Assembly: GCA_022837365.1 (NCBI GenBank)
Contig: JALHHV010000015.1
Location: forward strand, 2,165 to 17,441
Source of the DNA: Desulfovibrio sp.
Lineage (GTDB): Bacteria; Desulfobacterota; Desulfovibrionia; Desulfovibrionales; Desulfovibrionaceae
Length of the DNA: 15,277 nt
Direction: 5' to 3'
Positions 3,862-15,277 of the stretch are shown here, piece after piece. The notes beneath the pieces were generated by a model, which ran no database searches, was not told the DNA's origin, and saw only the letters and a list, made by a program, of their open reading frames with translations. The position numbers and the translations under genes are program-made. Numbering within the stretch: position 1 is the stretch's first letter; each line of letters starts with the position of its first letter.

Positions 3862-3890
3862 ATATTGGGCGAGCCCCCGCGAAAAATCAA
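3862..3890 (-). promoter_or_regulatory. weak candidate promoter for the zinc-ribbon gene
   Basis: On the minus strand TTGATT (3890-3885) and CAATAT (3867-3862) are separated by 17 nt. The -35 is fair and the -10 poor. It sits in the 110-nt gap after the dehydrogenase stop. A 7-bp hairpin, CGGGCAG/CTGCCCG, could form in the leader that follows. Confidence 0.25.
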
Positions 3891-3906
3891 GCCCGCATCG
3901 TGGCGG

Positions 3907-6900
3907 TCATTCCAGCCCCAGCGCTTCTTCCGTGGCCCGCTTGCGCGCGCCGCGCTCCAGCAGGTGCACCACCGCCGTGGCTTCCGGCAACCCGCTGCGC
4001 GACACCGCCGCGATCAGGTCGCGGATGCGCACGTCCTCGCGCAGCCAGGCCCGGGCCACGCTTTCGGCGTCGCGCTGGCGCGCCAGCGGAGCCAGCCAGC
4101 CCGCGCCCTCTGCATAGACGATGCGCGAAGCCGTGTGCGCGGCCACCAGCGCGTACTGGTGCCGCAACGGGATGCGCTCGAATATCCGCTCGGGAAAGCG
4201 CTCCACCAGCACCGGCGGCAGGTAGCCCAGCAGCACCTGGCGCAGGGCCGGGTCGGCCTCCACCGGTTCGCCGCGCGCCACCAGCGCCGCGTACAGCGCG
4301 TCCGCCACGGCGTTCATCTCCAGCGAGATGTCCACCGATATCTCGTGCAGGGCCTTGCAGCCGTCGCAACGACGTATCTCGGCCAGCAGCAGGCGCGCCT
4401 CGTCGCGGGCGCGCACCCGCAGGATGTCCAGCACTTCGGCCACGAAGCGGTCCTTGTGGGCGATGAACTCCTCGTCGGTCATGACCAGTCCGCCCAGCAC
4501 TTCGTACGAGGAGCAGATGACCCCGGTCTTGTTGGCCGACGAGCCGTGCACCACCAGCACCCCCCGCTCGGCCAGGCGCTTGCGCGCGTCGGGCGCCACG
4601 AACAGGTTGGCCCCCTCGATGACCGCGCGCGCCGTGGGCACCCCGCCCCGGTCGAAGAAGTCGTGCCAGTTTCGGGTGTTGACGGTGTCGGGCCGCCCCC
4701 CGGCGGGGATGAAGATGTCCGCGTGGGCGGTGTTGTGCAGGGTGTCGCGGCGGCGCACCCCTTCCGGGGTGTCGGCCGTGACCACCCACGCCCCCTCGCC
4801 GCGCAGCCGCGCCGGATCGAAGGCGCTGATGCTGCGCTGCACGTCGGCGAGGCGCAGCAGTTCGGCCGGGTCCAGCCCGTCCGGGTCCCAGGCCCCGCCG
4901 TGCCCGTCGCTGACGGCCACGACGCGCGCGTTGTCGCCGTACGCCTCGAACATCAGGCGCATCAGGTTGCCCGCCACGTCGCCCTTGGGACCGCCGGTGA
5001 TCTTCACCGTGAACGACTGGGAGAAGGGATCAATGCCCAGATGGCGCAGCATTTCCTCCGCGAAGACCATCACCCCGATGCTGGTGACGCCGTACTGCTT
5101 GTGGTTGATGCCCGCCCCGGCCTTGGAGCTCATGAACGCCGAGGGCCAGCGGTAGCCGCGCTGGCGGGCGCGCTCCACCATCCAGGCGATGTGCGCGGGC
5201 TGGATATTCTCGTCCGGGCCGCAGTAGATGATCTCCTCCCGGCCCAGGTAGTCCACCACGCCGGGCAGGGCCGGGGTGTCCTGGCCGGGCAGCACCACGT
5301 CCAGCAGCGAGTTGATCACCGAGGCCACGGCCAGGCCCACGTCGCCCAGGGGTTCCAGCAGGATGACCGCCTTGGCCCCGCCCTCGGGAATGTCCTTGTT
5401 CTTGACCTGCTGGGCGTAGGCCAGCCGCCGCACCTCGTCGTACAGGCGGTTCGACTCCAGTTCGAACTGCTCCTGGGTGCGGGTGGGCACCAGGCGCACC
5501 CCGCCGCGCGCCATGTCGCGGTAGCGGATGTGGAAGCCGAGGCCGCCCGGCGTGTGGAAAAAGAAGATGCCGAAGGGCAGTTCCTCGCCCTCCTGGCGGT
5601 AGGCGGGCGGCAGGAATTCCGGGTCCAGCCGGAAGGACAGGCCGTAGATGGTGTCCAGGAAGTAGTTGGTGCGCAGCACGTGGCGGAAGAAGCGCTGGAT
5701 CATCAGCAGCACGGCGCGCTCGCGCTCGTCGGCCACCCCGTTCACGGCGTCGGCGGCGTCGGCCTCCAGCCTGCGGGCCGCCGCCTCGCGGTCGCCCAAC
5801 GTGGGGTCGAAGCGAGCCTCGAACCAATCCACCAGCGCGGCGGTCTCGGCCCGGCGGGCCAGCACGATGCGCACCACGTTCTGGGTGCTGAAGGCCCACT
5901 GGTTGTCCTTGGCCAGGAACACGTGGGCGAAGCCGCAGGCGGCCTGCAACAGCATGATGCGCTTGATGGGCCAGGATTCCTCGTCGGCCAGGATTTCCAG
6001 CTCGTGCGGGGCGAACCACTTCACCAGGCGCAGCTTCTTGCGCAGGTTCTGCCACAGGGCGGAATCGTCCAGGATCAGGTCGCCCTTGTGCGAGACGTAG
6101 AAGCTCATGATGGCCGTCTCGCCGGAGGCGTCGGAGAAGGTGTCCGCGTAGGCGCGGTGCACGGTGATGTCCAGGCGGCGCATGATCCTGGCGATCTGCA
6201 GCAGCAGGCCCGTGGCCGGGGGATGGCGCATGGCCACCACGATGCGCGTCTCGCGCCGGACGTCGCAGGGCTCGGCCGACAGGGATGCCCCTTCCGGAGC
6301 CACCGGGGCGCCGGGCGCGGAGCACTGCTCGATGAGCAGCCCGGTGTCGTCACCGCCGCCGATCTCGCGCAGCAGCCGGAAATGGCGGGCCGCCCGCACC
6401 GGATCGAACTTTTCCGCGTATTCCGCGTTGGCGGAGGCCAGGAACGCCGCAAAGGGCGCAAGGTCCGTCTCCGGCAGTTCGCCGCTGGCGCGCATGGCGT
6501 CCAGGGCGGAGCCGAACAGGCCGTCGCCGTCGGCGGTGCGCAGGCTGCCCGCGCGGGGCTGCGGGGCCAGCAGGAATTCGTTCAGCCCCAGCTGTCCGTC
6601 GGCCGTGGTGTAGATGCGCGCGGTCTCGATGTGTTCGCCCAGCAGCCCGGCCAGAATGCCGTGCAGGTCGCGCGAGGCGGAGGGGGAAATGTAGGTGATC
6701 TTGCGGCCGTCGGGGCTGGCCAGGCGCACCGCGTGGTTGTCCGTGACCACCCGGCCGGAAATGATGGCCTGGAGGTGGTGCACCTGCTCGGTCACCGAAT
6801 GGGTGCGCAGGTAATAGTCCGGCATGTTGGCAAAAAACCACGGCACCACCTGATCGGCAATGCCGCCAAGCCCGCCCTTGACGAGCGAGAGCGCTTCTTC

Positions 6901-6927
6901 GACACCTTTGGCATGCGGTTCGGCCAT
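3907..6927 (-). CDS. NAD-type glutamate dehydrogenase, large (about 115 kDa class)
   Basis: This 1006-residue enzyme should oxidatively deaminate glutamate to 2-oxoglutarate and ammonia with NAD in the cytoplasm. The catalytic core is at about 450-830: RYRDMARGGVRL (468-479), the Lys of PEGGAKAVI (K519), NHKQYGVTSIGV (608-619), KITGGPKGDVAGN (642-654) and EGANLFVAPDARK (771-783) followed by SSANKTGV. About 450 residues precede the core, with an ACT-like segment near 228-300, and about 180 follow it. This is far longer than the 450-residue hexameric enzymes and shorter than the roughly 1600-residue GDH-180 class. The ATG at 6927 has GGAGG seven nt upstream. It diverges from queF. The amino-acid importer downstream on the same strand fits a glutamate-utilisation theme, which is inference. 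Confidence 0.92.
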   Translation of the reverse strand: MAEPHAKGVEEALSLVKGGLGGIADQVVPWFFANMPDYYLRTHSVTEQVHHLQAIISGRVVTDNHAVRLASPDGRKITYISPSASRDLHGILAGLLGEHIETARIYTTADGQLGLNEFLLAPQPRAGSLRTADGDGLFGSALDAMRASGELPETDLAPFAAFLASANAEYAEKFDPVRAARHFRLLREIGGGDDTGLLIEQCSAPGAPVAPEGASLSAEPCDVRRETRIVVAMRHPPATGLLLQIARIMRRLDITVHRAYADTFSDASGETAIMSFYVSHKGDLILDDSALWQNLRKKLRLVKWFAPHELEILADEESWPIKRIMLLQAACGFAHVFLAKDNQWAFSTQNVVRIVLARRAETAALVDWFEARFDPTLGDREAAARRLEADAADAVNGVADERERAVLLMIQRFFRHVLRTNYFLDTIYGLSFRLDPEFLPPAYRQEGEELPFGIFFFHTPGGLGFHIRYRDMARGGVRLVPTRTQEQFELESNRLYDEVRRLAYAQQVKNKDIPEGGAKAVILLEPLGDVGLAVASVINSLLDVVLPGQDTPALPGVVDYLGREEIIYCGPDENIQPAHIAWMVERARQRGYRWPSAFMSSKAGAGINHKQYGVTSIGVMVFAEEMLRHLGIDPFSQSFTVKITGGPKGDVAGNLMRLMFEAYGDNARVVAVSDGHGGAWDPDGLDPAELLRLADVQRSISAFDPARLRGEGAWVVTADTPEGVRRRDTLHNTAHADIFIPAGGRPDTVNTRNWHDFFDRGGVPTARAVIEGANLFVAPDARKRLAERGVLVVHGSSANKTGVICSSYEVLGGLVMTDEEFIAHKDRFVAEVLDILRVRARDEARLLLAEIRRCDGCKALHEISVDISLEMNAVADALYAALVARGEPVEADPALRQVLLGYLPPVLVERFPERIFERIPLRHQYALVAAHTASRIVYAEGAGWLAPLARQRDAESVARAWLREDVRIRDLIAAVSRSGLPEATAVVHLLERGARKRATEEALGLE

Positions 6928-6960
6928 GGAAGTTCCTCCGTCACGGGCGGTTTACCGCTC

Positions 6961-6988
6961 AGGATAGCGCAATGGCCCGCCGTGGCAA
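6961..6988 (-). promoter_or_regulatory. candidate sigma70 promoter for glutamate dehydrogenase
   Basis: On the minus strand TTGCCA (6988-6983) and TATCCT (6966-6961) are spaced by 16 nt, each matching four or five consensus bases. Transcription would begin near 6954, leaving a short leader of about 27 nt that contains the GGAGG ribosome-binding site. Confidence 0.45.
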
Positions 6989-7050
6989 CCGTTTTCTGCC
7001 GCCTGCCGTGGTTGTCGTCGGTACCACCATGGGCGAACCGCCCGCACCGC

Positions 7051-7079
7051 TTGCCAAGCCCGGCCCCAGCGGCCACAAT
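7051..7079 (+). promoter_or_regulatory. candidate sigma70 promoter for queF
   Basis: TTGCCA (7051-7056) and CACAAT (7074-7079) are separated by 17 nt. The leader to the queF ATG would be about 26 nt, too short for a preQ1 riboswitch, and no such aptamer is seen. Confidence 0.45.
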
Positions 7080-7111
7080 GCGCGCATCATATTCCCACGG
7101 GAGAGCATCGC

Positions 7112-7678
7112 ATGACCACGAAGAACGACACCCGCGCGTCCGGTTCCGCATCGAGCCCCGCATCGGACTCCGCCGACGCCCCCTATACCCGTAGCCAGGA
7201 CCAGACCGGGCACCTGCGCACGCTGGGCGTGAAGGCCGACTATCCCCAGGCCGGACCCGGCCCGCACATCCTGGAGGCCTTTCCCAACAACTTCCCGGAC
7301 CGGCCGTACATCGTGAGCATCGGCTTTCCGGAATTCACCTCGCTGTGCCCGGTGACCGGCCAGCCCGACTTCGCCACCATCGTCACCGAGTACATCCCCG
7401 ACCGGCTGTGCGTGGAATCCAAGAGCTTCAAGCTGTACATGTTCGCCTACCGCAACCACCAGTCGTTCATGGAGACCATCACCAACACCGTGCTCGACCA
7501 CATGACCGAAGCCCTGGATCCGCTGTGGTGCCGGGTGAAGGGCCTGTTCACCCCGCGCGGCGGCACCCACCTGCACGTGTTCGCCGAGCGCTTCAAGCAG
7601 GTGGAGGCGGAACGCGCGGCCATGGTGCGCGAGATGGTTTCGGAGTGGAAACGCGAGAGCGGACGGCATACGGCGTAG
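7112..7678 (+). CDS. queF: NADPH-dependent 7-cyano-7-deazaguanine (preQ0) reductase
   Basis: QueF reduces the nitrile of preQ0 to the aminomethyl group of preQ1, a step in making queuosine for tRNA wobble positions. The 188-residue protein is the short, single-module form. The catalytic cysteine is in FTSLCPVTGQPDFATI (C79), the paired general acid is D86, and the QueF signature ESKSFKLYMFAYRNH spans 102-116. RVKGLFTPRGGTHLHV near 141-156 is also typical. The first 30 residues are Ser/Ala/Asp-rich and probably disordered. The ATG at 7112 follows a GGGAGA-type ribosome-binding site. It stands alone: it is divergent from the dehydrogenase and convergent with lptD, so preQ0 must be made by genes elsewhere or taken up. 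Confidence 0.96.
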   Translation: MTTKNDTRASGSASSPASDSADAPYTRSQDQTGHLRTLGVKADYPQAGPGPHILEAFPNNFPDRPYIVSIGFPEFTSLCPVTGQPDFATIVTEYIPDRLCVESKSFKLYMFAYRNHQSFMETITNTVLDHMTEALDPLWCRVKGLFTPRGGTHLHVFAERFKQVEAERAAMVREMVSEWKRESGRHTA

Positions 7679-12333: not shown

Positions 12334-12837
12334 ATGAAGCTGATCCTTCGTGCTGACGTTGAAAACCTGGGCCGCCTCGGCGACGTGGTGGTGGTGAAGC
12401 CCGGTTTCGGCCGCAACTTCCTGTTGCCGCAGGGCCTGGCCATGCTGGCTTCCGATGCCAACCTGAAGGCGTTCGAACTGGAGCGCAAGAAACTTCAGGC
12501 CAAGATGGACGCCCTGCGCACCGCAGCCTCCGACCTGTCCGCCAAGATCGCGGCCACCGAACTGGTGATCCCCGTTCGCGTGGGTGAAAACGACAAGCTC
12601 TACGGTTCCGTCACCACCGCTATCATCGGCGACGCGCTGGCCGAAAAGGGCGTGGACATCGACCGTCGCCGCATCCTGCTCGACGCCGCCATCCGCACCC
12701 TGGGCACGCACGAAGTGCGCGTCCGCCTGCACGCCGACGTGGTGGCCACCCTGAACGTCAAGGTTGTTGCCGAAGACAAGGTGAGCGATGCCGCAGAACC
12801 CGTCGTGGACGCCGAGCCGGAAACCCCGGCCGAATAG
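12334..12837 (+). CDS. rplI: 50S ribosomal protein L9
   Basis: L9 binds 23S rRNA near the L1 stalk and reaches between neighbouring ribosomes, helping to maintain reading frame. The 167-residue protein has the rRNA-binding N-domain with the family signature GDVVVVKPGFGRNFLLPQG (16-34), a long connecting helix (about 40-75) and the C-domain. The last 20 residues are an acidic, Ala/Pro/Glu-rich tail beyond the usual end. An ideal AGGAGG sits six nt before the ATG, nine nt after rpsR. The tail-coding part overlaps the start of dnaB by 50 nt in another frame. Confidence 0.97.
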   Translation: MKLILRADVENLGRLGDVVVVKPGFGRNFLLPQGLAMLASDANLKAFELERKKLQAKMDALRTAASDLSAKIAATELVIPVRVGENDKLYGSVTTAIIGDALAEKGVDIDRRRILLDAAIRTLGTHEVRVRLHADVVATLNVKVVAEDKVSDAAEPVVDAEPETPAE

Positions 12838-14272
12838 CCGCACCGATTCCGACGCCGCCTCCGCCTACCAGGGCGGGGGCGGCGCTCCCGATCCGACGGA
12901 ACGCGCTTCCGCCGATCTGTTGCGCCGAGTCCCCCCGCACAGCACCGAAGCCGAACAGGCCGTGCTCGGGGGGATTCTGCTTCGCAACTCGGTGCTGCAT
13001 TCCGTGGTCGACACCCTGCGGCCGGAAGACTTCTACCTGCCCGCCCACCAGCAGATCTACGACGCCTGCCTGGAACTGTACCGGCGCAACGCCCCCATCG
13101 ACCTCGTGACCATGGCGGAATACCTGCAATCGCAGAGCCGCCTGGAAGGGGTGGGCGGGGCCGTGTACCTTGCGGAACTGGCCCAGTCCACCATCAGCGC
13201 CGCCAACGCGGAGCACTACTCCACCATCGTGCGCGACAAGTCGTTGCTGCGCTCGCTGATCGGCGCGGGCTCCGAGATCATCAGCAACTGCTACGACGCC
13301 TCGCGCGAGGTGCAGAAGCTGCTGGACGAATCGGAGCAGGCGGTGTTCGCCATCTCTGAGCGGGTCAGCGGCAAGATGTTCCGCAGCGCCAAGGAAATGG
13401 TGAACAAGGTCTTCGAAGACCTGGTGAAGCGCTGCGACCGCAAGGAAGTGGTCACCGGCGTCACCACCGGCTTCGTGCAGTTGGACCAGATGACCTCGGG
13501 CCTGCAACAGTCGGACCTGATCATCGTGGCCGCGCGCCCCTCCATGGGCAAGACCGCCTTCGCCCTGAACATGTGCCTGCGCGCTGCCGTGAACCAGAAT
13601 GTGCCCGTGGCCGTGTACTCCCTGGAAATGTCCATGGAGCAGCTGGTCATGCGCATGCTCTGCTCGCTGGGCAAGGTGGACCTTTCCAAGGTGCGCAAGG
13701 GATTCCTGGACGACGAGGACTGGCAGCGCCTGTACCACGCCGCCGACGTGCTCTCGCAGGCGCCCATCTACATCGACGACACCCCCGCCATCACCACCCT
13801 GGAACTGCGCGCCCGCACCCGCCGCCTGAAGGCGGAACGCGGCGTTGGCCTGGTCATGGTGGACTACCTGCAATTAATGCGCTCCGCCCGCCGGGTGGAT
13901 TCGCGCGAACTGGAAATTTCCGAAATCTCGCGCTCGCTGAAGGCCCTGGCCAAGGAACTGAACATCCCGGTCATCGCCCTGTCGCAGCTGAACCGCAAGG
14001 TGGAAGAGCGCACCAACAAGCGCCCCATGCTTTCGGACCTGCGCGAATCGGGCGCCATCGAGCAGGACGCCGACGTGATCATGTTCATCTACCGTGACGA
14101 CGCCTACAACAAGCGCGACGACAACCCGCGCAAGGGCATCGCGGAAATCATCATCGGCAAGCAGCGCAACGGCCCCGTGGGTGTGGCCGAGCTTGCCTAC
14201 CTGCCCTCGTACACTGCGTTCGAGGATTTGACGTTCGTCCCGCCGCCGCCCTCGGAGGGGTATGGGGATTAG
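12788..14272 (+). CDS. dnaB: replicative DNA helicase DnaB
   Basis: DnaB is the hexameric helicase that unwinds DNA ahead of the replisome, 5' to 3', and recruits primase. The N-terminal domain is recognisable at about 45-150 (RRVPPHSTEAEQAVLGGILL). The RecA-like motor carries Walker A ARPSMGKTAFAL (249-260, K255), the catalytic Glu in YSLEMSMEQL (E280), Walker B VMVDYLQLM (D359), the sensor region IALSQLNRKVE (Q400) and KQRNGPVG (458-465) with the trans-acting arginine. The 494-residue length is normal apart from a 45-residue disordered N-terminal stretch. The ATG at 12788, with AAGGTGAG upstream, lies inside rplI; no better in-frame ATG follows before the conserved domain. No intein is present. 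It ends 44 nt before a strong terminator. Confidence 0.97.
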   Translation: MPQNPSWTPSRKPRPNSRTDSDAASAYQGGGGAPDPTERASADLLRRVPPHSTEAEQAVLGGILLRNSVLHSVVDTLRPEDFYLPAHQQIYDACLELYRRNAPIDLVTMAEYLQSQSRLEGVGGAVYLAELAQSTISAANAEHYSTIVRDKSLLRSLIGAGSEIISNCYDASREVQKLLDESEQAVFAISERVSGKMFRSAKEMVNKVFEDLVKRCDRKEVVTGVTTGFVQLDQMTSGLQQSDLIIVAARPSMGKTAFALNMCLRAAVNQNVPVAVYSLEMSMEQLVMRMLCSLGKVDLSKVRKGFLDDEDWQRLYHAADVLSQAPIYIDDTPAITTLELRARTRRLKAERGVGLVMVDYLQLMRSARRVDSRELEISEISRSLKALAKELNIPVIALSQLNRKVEERTNKRPMLSDLRESGAIEQDADVIMFIYRDDAYNKRDDNPRKGIAEIIIGKQRNGPVGVAELAYLPSYTAFEDLTFVPPPPSEGYGD

Positions 14273-14315
14273 GAACGAGAGTGGGGTTGTTGAGAAGAGA
14301 ATATGGAGAGTGTTG

Positions 14316-14348
14316 CGGGGCTGCCGGAAGGTGGCCCCGTTTTTGTTT
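14316..14348 (+). terminator. intrinsic terminator of the rpsF-dnaB operon
   Basis: CGGGGCTGCC (14316-14325) pairs with GGTGGCCCCG (14330-14339), including two G-U pairs, around a GGAA tetraloop. TTTTTGTTT follows immediately. This is a textbook Rho-independent terminator. Confidence 0.92.
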
Positions 14349-14373
14349 GGGGTATGGGGGAGTGGGAGGGGTA

Positions 14374-14450
14374 GTGCGCGGCTGCACCCGGCTTCTACGA
14401 AGACACGCCAGCGTTATTGAACACGCTCGATCTCGTTATGCCTCCGGCGG
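14374..14450 (+). repeat. 77-bp direct repeat, copy 1
   Basis: This copy matches 14462-14538 at 74 of 77 positions; the differences are at 14378, 14427 and 14432. The offset is 88 bp. It contains CGGCTTCTACGAAGACAC and ends in TATGCCTCCGGCGG. Confidence 0.9.
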
Positions 14451-14461
14451 AGGGATGGGTT

Positions 14462-14538
14462 GTGCACGGCTGCACCCGGCTTCTACGAAGACACGCCAGC
14501 GTTATTGAACACGCCCGATTTCGTTATGCCTCCGGCGG
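14462..14538 (+). repeat. 77-bp direct repeat, copy 2 (tip of the left arm)
   Basis: This is the second copy of the direct repeat. Its portion from 14477, extended to 14540, is the reverse complement of 15175-15238 at 63 of 64 positions. It is closer to the inverted copy than copy 1 is, because it shares the C at 14515 and T at 14520. Confidence 0.9.
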
Positions 14539-14568
14539 GCAAGGGGCCATGAAACGATGGCCCCTTGC
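14539..14568. other. left-arm hairpin, 12-bp stem
   Basis: GCAAGGGGCCAT (14539-14550) pairs perfectly with ATGGCCCCTTGC (14557-14568) around GAAACG. Its counterpart in the right arm is 15148-15176. A second hairpin, CCAGGGG/CCCCTGG with an inner GGC/GCC, follows immediately at 14580-14603 and is conserved in the right arm (15113-15136). Confidence 0.8.
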
Positions 14569-14760
14569 ATCCCCGCGTTCCAGGGGGGCTTCGCCACCCC
14601 TGGACCCCCAACGCTGCATGCGCGGCGTCCCTTCGGCGGCAGCTTCCCTCCGGCGCAAAGCGCCTCCGGGCGATCTGCCGCCGGTGCCGCCAATGCGCAC
14701 AAGACTCCCGCTGGCATGGCAAAGCGAGGGTGCTTTTACCTTCGCCCCCGTTGCGACGCA

Positions 14761-14788
14761 TATGCCGCCGTCAAAGCCCGGCGGCATA
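14761..14788. other. core hairpin, 9-bp stem
   Basis: TATGCCGCC (14761-14769) pairs perfectly with GGCGGCATA (14780-14788) around a 10-nt loop. It lies at the boundary between left arm and core. Confidence 0.75.
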
Positions 14789-14863
14789 CGCTTCTACGCG
14801 CGGAACGTGGTCGTGCGGGTGACACGGAAAAATATTCTCTGCATGATCGTACCTGTTGGTTTG

Positions 14864-14880
14864 GCAAAGGGAACCTTTGC
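14864..14880. other. core hairpin, 7-bp stem with 3-nt loop
   Basis: GCAAAGG (14864-14870) pairs with CCTTTGC (14874-14880) around GAA. It lies near the midpoint of the inverted-repeat element. A second small stem, GCGGC/GCCGC (14881-14885 with 14894-14898), follows. Confidence 0.7.
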
Positions 14881-14899
14881 GCGGCGATACGCAGCCGCA

Positions 14900-14942
14900 G
14901 CCGGAGATCACCGCCGAGGCTTCGCGAGGCGGAAGCTCCGGC
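14900..14942. other. nested core hairpin
   Basis: GCCGGAG (14900-14906) pairs with CTCCGGC (14936-14942), enclosing CCGCC (14911-14915) paired with GGCGG (14928-14932). That makes 12 pairs in two stems. It marks the inner boundary of the right arm. Confidence 0.65.
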
Positions 14943-15147
14943 GTCGCGGATGCGCGCCGCAGAAAGAGCGAAATAACAAGCACCCACCCTCCTTCGCCTT
15001 GCTACCGGGAGCCTTGCGCACATCGCGTTCCCGTTGGCAGATCACCCGAAGGCGCTTTGCGCCGCAGGGAAGCTGACAACGGAAGGAACGCGGTGCAGGA
15101 AGCGTTAGGGGTCCAGGGGTGGCGAAGCCCCCCTGGAGCGCGGGGGT

Positions 15148-15176
15148 GCAGGGGGGCCTCGCTAAAGGCCCCCTGC
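15148..15176. other. right-arm hairpin, counterpart of the left-arm stem
   Basis: GCAGGGGGGCC (15148-15158) pairs with GGCCCCCTGC (15167-15176), with one bulged G and the loop TCGCTAAA. Relative to the left-arm hairpin, the fourth pair changed from A-T (14542/14565) to G-C (15151/15173), keeping the pairing. Confidence 0.75.
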
Positions 15177-15238
15177 CCGCCGGAGGCATAACGAAATCGG
15201 GCGTGTTCAATAACGCTGGAGTGTCTTCGTAGAAGCCG
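15175..15238 (-). repeat. inverted copy of the terminal repeat
   Basis: This is the reverse complement of 14477-14540 with one difference. It forms the right tip of the long inverted-repeat element and has no tandem duplicate beside it, unlike the left tip. Confidence 0.9.
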
Positions 15239-15277
15239 CACCCAACAGAGCACGACTCCCACCGCGCCACCGCGCCA

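Follow-up and report, generated by a model that had tools for sequence, protein, structure and literature searches.

Long palindromes are normally unstable. Among described repeats with inverted or modular parts, REPINs are paired inverted REPs, the pneumococcal BOX element is an intergenic repeat made of modules, one of which varies in number, and the foldback elements of eukaryotes have a central segment between long inverted repeats whose tandem sub-repeats vary, and they serve as rearrangement breakpoints. The REP units themselves are described, in the cited sections of the respective papers, as palindromes of 20-40 bp (PMC3733652) that occur in more than 100 copies per genome (PMC2817692) and are targets of insertion sequences (IS) (PMC1525189), while MITEs are described in the cited section of PMC2229807 as <200 bp long and A+T-rich. 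The main text of PMC3733652, the part of that source considered here, does not mention Desulfovibrio.

We analyzed a 15,277-nt stretch of DNA from Desulfovibrio sp. (the window), in which a long inverted repeat follows dnaB. We read this repeat, with a probability of about 0.6, as a large BIME-like composite palindromic intergenic repeat that is ancient, is inherited in place and probably serves as a transcription-unit boundary. Its modules were cut from the window and sought with blastn in eight genomes, which gave the order (M1)n+ M2+ (M3)n+ [M4 M5] (M3)n- M2- (M1)n-, inverted about the core. This nested order is obeyed by 60 of the 62 elements annotated in these genomes (partial elements included), and the two that depart from it, L138 and L159, appear to be fusions or partial duplications of elements.

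The element resembles BIME/REP clusters in being intergenic, in carrying hairpin units in alternating orientation and in being an IS target; two IS3-like insertions at one M2 position parallel the description of REPs as IS targets in the cited section of PMC1525189. It differs from BIMEs in its single fixed nested order and its larger size. The M3 and M5 hairpins measure ~80-90 nt, in contrast with the 20-40 bp of BIME/REP units, and the complete genome in our set holds at least 16 element sites rather than more than 100 copies. By eye, the GTAG/CGTC end tag of REPs is absent from the ends of the M5 and M3 consensus sequences, and GTAG occurs inside the M1 motif CTTCGTAGAAG. The RAYT gene of REP/BIME systems gave no hit in the same complete genome.

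Like a REPIN, the element has two inverted hairpin units about a spacer, but it carries several module types per arm, is far larger and occupies old fixed sites. It shares with MITEs its non-coding character, inverted ends and dispersed intergenic locations, whereas it is G+C-rich and ~1 kb long, and neither a target duplication nor a pristine empty site was seen. The likeness to foldback elements, which lies in the long inverted arms, the varying tandem sub-repeats, the central segment and the role as rearrangement breakpoints, is an analogy only, the element being bacterial and showing no sign of transposition. It is modular and intergenic, with one module variable in number, as BOX is; however, BOX is much shorter and is not a nested palindrome. 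The family is distinct, belongs to one genus of sulfate reducers and unites features that are usually found apart: large size, occupation of the same sites in different species, hairpins that covary, and local inversions that are frequent. Two questions thereby become testable, namely what allows a bacterial genome to retain long palindromes while species diverge, and whether inversion breakpoints are tolerated at composite palindromes.

Anatomy of the inverted repeat downstream of dnaB

The upstream neighbor, dnaB (12788-14272, + strand), has orthologues in seven of seven congeners at 95-96% nucleotide identity, and its 3' end points toward the element. A terminator-like site follows at 14315-14340 (+ strand), outside the element, where one such site was found and 1.8 were expected from shuffles. 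The inverted repeat, at about 14364-15256, is genuine: compared with its own reverse complement, the element scores 382 bits, whereas none of 100 mononucleotide shuffles exceeded 39.2, so that the long inverted repeat without a transposase proposed in an earlier note on this DNA is borne out. A gapped alignment between the arms spans 257 nt at 84.8% identity (E 1.6e-75), and the ungapped arm pairs measure 90 nt (89%), 93 nt (83%) and 57 nt (82%). When 14364-15271 was folded as RNA, the energy was -622.9 kcal/mol (z = -22.9 versus 20 shuffles), and it is possible that the element gives rise to a long folded RNA.

Several details of the earlier note could be compared with this anatomy. The identity of 63/64 that it gave for the tip agrees with a 62-nt match to the opposite arm, at 98% for the second left tip copy and 95% for the first. 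The core is larger than the ~165 bp it described, since the unpaired center comes nearer to 250 nt (about 14733-14984). It missed a duplication at the left tip, where two direct copies stand in tandem (14364-14450 and 14452-14538, 94% alike). The decay of identity that it saw toward the center does reflect divergence, but the succession of distinct modules M1, M2 and M3 also contributes.

On the left, the outer and inner M1 copies (the two duplicated tip segments, both on the + strand) are followed by M2 (14539-14624, + strand), a module also found in congeners that comprises two G+C-rich hairpins, with an internal 12-nt inverted repeat and a second hairpin recognized by eye. The left-arm M3 module was placed at 14625-14735 (+ strand) by blastn module comparison with congeners, while the left-arm M3 hairpin, supported by an R1 hit of 35.7 bits and by the M3 covariation described below, lies across the M2/M3 boundary at 14610-14701 on the - strand. 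The core comprises M4 (14745-14815, + strand), a conserved module supported by module comparison and by its identity relative to fourfold sites, and the conserved hairpin M5 (14880-14968, + strand), with an R1 hit of 109.4 bits and with its pairs counted below. Module comparison placed M3 (14985-15091), M2 (15095-15176) and a single tip copy of M1 (15177-15256, also recognized by its match to the other arm) in the right arm, all on the - strand.

Across the family, M1 is present in up to five and M3 in up to three tandem copies per arm. The 42 of 62 elements that are two-ended and >500 bp range from 638 to 2249 bp with a median of 1122 bp, and the longest of all, L121, contains an IS, as does L115. 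At S124 and S125, in genomes G007 and G003, only M3-M5 are present and the tips are absent. The IS3-like element (HTH_Tnp_1, HTH_21 and rve domains; low GC3) lies at L115:3880-5190 and L121:3115-4430; both insertions are in G007, in different elements but at the identical M2 position, between the two M2 hairpins.

Inside the dnaB element of G007 (G007:C1:1733051-1733083) lies a further hairpin repeat, of 33 bp, whose stems are fixed and whose loop varies. Its pattern has 6-18 exact matches per genome in eight of eight congeners (none for a reversed-pattern control), and the copies are dispersed in G000-G007, some of them within elements.

Distribution of the family and sites shared between species

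The repeat family is present in all eight Nitratidesulfovibrio genomes compared (G000-G007). The genus name rests on G006, Nitratidesulfovibrio liaohensis XJ01; G001 is Desulfovibrio sp. Rs511_bin20 and G004 is Desulfovibrio sp. A2. The home genome of the window, G000, is a draft that is 75% complete in 589 contigs, and it holds one further large copy, on C114, for two large copies in all. G007 is a single-contig complete genome, for which the 16 element sites are a lower bound because only 40 of 96 candidates were scored. Clustering of these sites along the G007 chromosome was considered by eye, and we make no claim for it. The dispersed repeat suggested by the earlier note is thus confirmed, and the finding that it said would speak against it, a single copy without relatives, is not the case. 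In the draft genomes, repeat elements occur at several contig ends.

A search for relatives in which at most eight candidates were scored per genome gave matches in 13 of 59 genomes, including long matches in all eight of the genus and, in each of five genomes outside it, 1-4 matches with best E values of 1.9e-5 to 8e-4. The M5 covariance model, run under stricter filters and with up to 15 candidates per genome scored, detected all eight genomes of the genus and one of 280 others of the bacterial family; this lone match scored 24 bits with an E value of 0.0064 per genome, which is chance level over 288 genomes. An earlier search with the M5 model had found none in 51 non-genus genomes. Plasmid and phage records contained no sequence similar to the element, and no description of the family was found among titles and abstract openings in the open subset of PubMed Central, which does not prove its absence from print.

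Element sites are shared between species. At 14 of the 16 G007 sites, both flanks match those of a full or partial element in at least one other species, while at L115 and L116 an inversion makes the flanks match L143 and L144 of G003 crosswise. At the dnaB site, the element precedes a convergent DUF748 gene (identified by Pfam in G007), and the flanks match in G003, G004, G005 and G006. G001 carries extra genes between dnaB and the element, the G000 contig ends just past the element, and the G002 contig ends soon after dnaB, with what appears by eye to be the start of an ISL3-type transposase (L079:100-218). The family probably expanded before the Nitratidesulfovibrio species sampled here split, and was thereafter inherited in place.

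The interval between dnaB and the element in G001 also contains two frames separated by an in-frame TGA (L076:1456-3342), which, by eye, resemble selenocysteine-containing glycine/betaine reductase, but the downstream frame had no Pfam match at E<=0.001.

Inverted ends and dispersed copies would equally be expected of a MITE- or foldback-type element that moves now, or did until recently, with a transposase acting in trans. The tandem sub-repeats at the tips recall those of eukaryotic foldback elements, and two sites, S112 and S120, are occupied in some species only. We nevertheless consider such an element unlikely. All 16 G007 sites were found to be common to another species, which argues against recent movement, by foldback transposition as well, and nothing similar to the element occurs in the plasmid and phage records. 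Inspection of S120 and S112 revealed no pristine empty site. The LIR-free S120 allele of G003 first seemed empty, and a TGCA 4-bp target duplication left by transposition was considered there; this candidate was rejected, as the allele appears to retain element remnants. Because it keeps outer M1 sequence at its left and, at its right, the linker that is found between two M1 copies in G001, G005 and G006, we read the allele as the scar of a deletion, although the linker could still represent the original flank, with M1 added later. G002 has another insertion at S120, of ~3.7 kb and without detected modules, and its left match extends ~30 bp into the element. S112 was likewise rejected as an empty site, since G002, G003 and G006 have a gene there instead of the element (L170:1650-2630, L171:1221-2138 and L172:1690-2628), which in the G003 copy is Methyltransf_24 by Pfam. 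Within the single transposase family sought, PF01797 (Y1_Tnp), no hit was obtained in six of the eight genomes, including G000 and G007, and partial frames of 74-75 aa were found in G001 and G003. The MITE-like mobility raised in the earlier note is therefore not upheld, and the element does not look currently mobile, no sign of movement having been found in the genomes compared. The same note's alternative of two dispersed repeats placed head to head fails on the single nested order of 60 of the 62 elements.

Inversions, constraint and covarying hairpins

Elements or their remnants bound both ends of two inversions. One, of ~12 kb, distinguishes L143/L144 in G003 from L115/L116 in G007 (the latter both incomplete elements), and the other, of ~5.5-6.5 kb, distinguishes L141/L142 in G003 (L142 being a lone M1) from L163/L213 in G004. 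The element family serves as a breakpoint for DNA inversions. At L063, a G001 contig links flanks that are ~208 kb apart in G007; this case was kept out of the inversion count because G001 was assembled from a metagenome and only the first breakpoint was inspected.

The core has also inverted. Eleven sites have M5 in at least two genomes and could be compared, with orientations derived by hand (S138, matched on one flank only, was not used), and core orientation differs between species at four of them. Relative to the fixed flank, M5 at the dnaB site is + in G000, G005 and G007 and - in G001, G004 and G006, while at S114 it is + in G003 and G004 and - in G000, G005 and G007. At S123, G002 is unlike four other genomes, and at S144, G004 is unlike two others. 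Orientation is uniform at the other seven sites (S112, S113b, S117, S118, S121, S124 and S125). Recombination between the inverted arms, via RecA or replication template switching, could flip the core and change the tip copy number. The comparisons show elements changing in three ways: in the number of tip copies, by inversion of the core and by recombination with other elements.

Both core orientations at four of 11 sites might instead point to an invertible regulatory switch in which core inversion alters the expression of a neighbor, and the core does contain one promoter-like match (14819-14847; 0.1 expected from shuffles). However, a single match to a promoter consensus proves little, hairpin-rich arms separate the core from any gene, and the seven sites with one orientation only also speak against a switch, which we regard as highly improbable.

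The core is conserved. Fourfold sites of the flanking genes have a mean identity of 0.87 over 25 genome pairs, compared with which M4 (0.927 versus 0.859) and M5 (0.936 versus 0.861) are each more similar in 17 of 18 pairs. The identities of M1 (0.885; higher in 16 of 25 pairs) and M3 (0.880; higher in 13 of 25) are close to those of fourfold sites, and M2 has an identity of 0.906 (higher in 16 of 23), all module values being inflated because they come from the best of several copies of modules detectable by blastn, over genome pairs that are not independent. Concerted evolution across sites was rejected, as copies within a genome are no closer than copies between genomes (0.797 versus 0.799 for M1 and 0.894 versus 0.896 for M5). 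Opposite M1 arms of one element, at 0.828, are slightly above M1 at other sites (0.80). Since likeness within and between genomes is the same, constraint acting since the family expanded long ago seems a better explanation of the shared M5 sequence than copying does.

The M3 and M5 hairpins are related. The M5 model detects M3 at up to 38 bits, finding left-arm M3 on the - strand, and by eye the paired flanks of both enclose much the same asymmetric internal loop, with AGATCRCC on one side and GGAAGCT on the other. Pairs were counted in MAFFT alignments made without structure, A3 with 40 M5 sequences and A4 with 43 M3-type hits (divergent-looking rows L154 and L139:3560 retained), which together comprise 83 of 125 hits, the 42 lower-scoring or reverse-strand hits being left out. 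The structures counted were predicted from these same alignments, which favors them in the following figures. For M3, 12 of 18 pairs changed on both sides, compared with a mean of 4.5 in 500 shuffles, none of which was as high, and 96.8% of cells were paired, falling to 33-49% when the partner was slid by 1-3 columns. The M3 hairpin thus covaries strongly. For M5, 96.7% of cells were paired and 28 changed on both sides versus a shuffled mean of 7.6, while the four pairs changed on both sides were equaled in 43 of 500 shuffles and the pair types in all 500; M5 is too conserved for a strong covariation test. Covariation was not judged from the combined alignment A2, because M3 and M5 hits stand there together with hits to these hairpins on the reverse strand.

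These hairpins may have been kept because their folded form is recognized, whether as RNA, single-stranded DNA or cruciform DNA, although the covariation could come from palindrome correction at the DNA level instead. A transcribed, structured non-coding RNA with a role in trans could also account for the covariation of the M3 hairpins and for the asymmetric internal loop that the related M5 hairpins share with them. We find this very unlikely, as Rfam gave no match at E<=1 over 14200-15277 and each element carries several hairpins in both orientations.

Neighboring genes and open frames

According to gene calls made in G007 by a crude composition-based script, 15 of 16 elements have at least one flanking gene with its 3' end toward the element, and 14 of the 19 3'-facing flanks lie within 34-114 bp of it. 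The 16 sites are intergenic, save for overlaps of 17 bp and 43 bp with called ORF starts. Divergent sites account for one of 16, compared with 19 of 104 control intergenes, which is no clear depletion. Elements adjoin rpoC, dsrA, qmoC, ffh and ptsI, which were named by eye and whose Pfam domains agree with these names (RNA_pol_Rpb1, NIR_SIR, Fer4 with a weak gamma-subunit match, SRP54 and PEP-utilizers, respectively). Codon adaptation, measured with the S10 region as reference and with control genes from 18 spaced regions, was not enriched in 32 flanks next to elements relative to 207 control genes (p=0.21) or in the 3'-facing flanks (n=19, p=0.25), and the idea that the neighbors are highly expressed was dropped.

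The element would act as a boundary between transcription units, and taken alone this role of a structured boundary is a tentative proposal. Its intergenic position, the 3'-facing neighbors in G007 and hairpins apparently under selection point toward it, whereas dnaB is followed by its own terminator-like site, codon adaptation is not enriched next to elements and the depletion of divergent sites is not decisive. A genus-specific chromosome-organizing element, in which a lineage-specific protein would recognize the repeated hairpin with its conserved asymmetric internal loop, and which would be kept at ~16 fixed sites as a border where core flips and inversions of whole segments leave genes unharmed, strikes us as quite unlikely.

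Thirteen open frames of 70-219 aa (listing threshold 60 aa) overlap the dnaB element, and these frames, created by the element, are probably spurious. Twelve had no Pfam match at E<=1, and the frame at 14565-14822 (+ strand) had a 25-residue match to Zn_ribbon_Nudix with an E value of 0.00057, whose 20.2 bits fall short of the curated cut-off (25.6), so the earlier note was right that no gene can be supported. We give practically no credence to a protein-coding gene, for which the number of frames and this one match would speak but not the other 12 frames, or to an assembly artefact, as other assemblies have the same kind of element at the dnaB site.

Elsewhere in the window, at 3865-7194, a + strand frame of 1109 codons lies antisense to a - strand frame of 1006 aa, an overlap that is probably an artefact of high G+C content.
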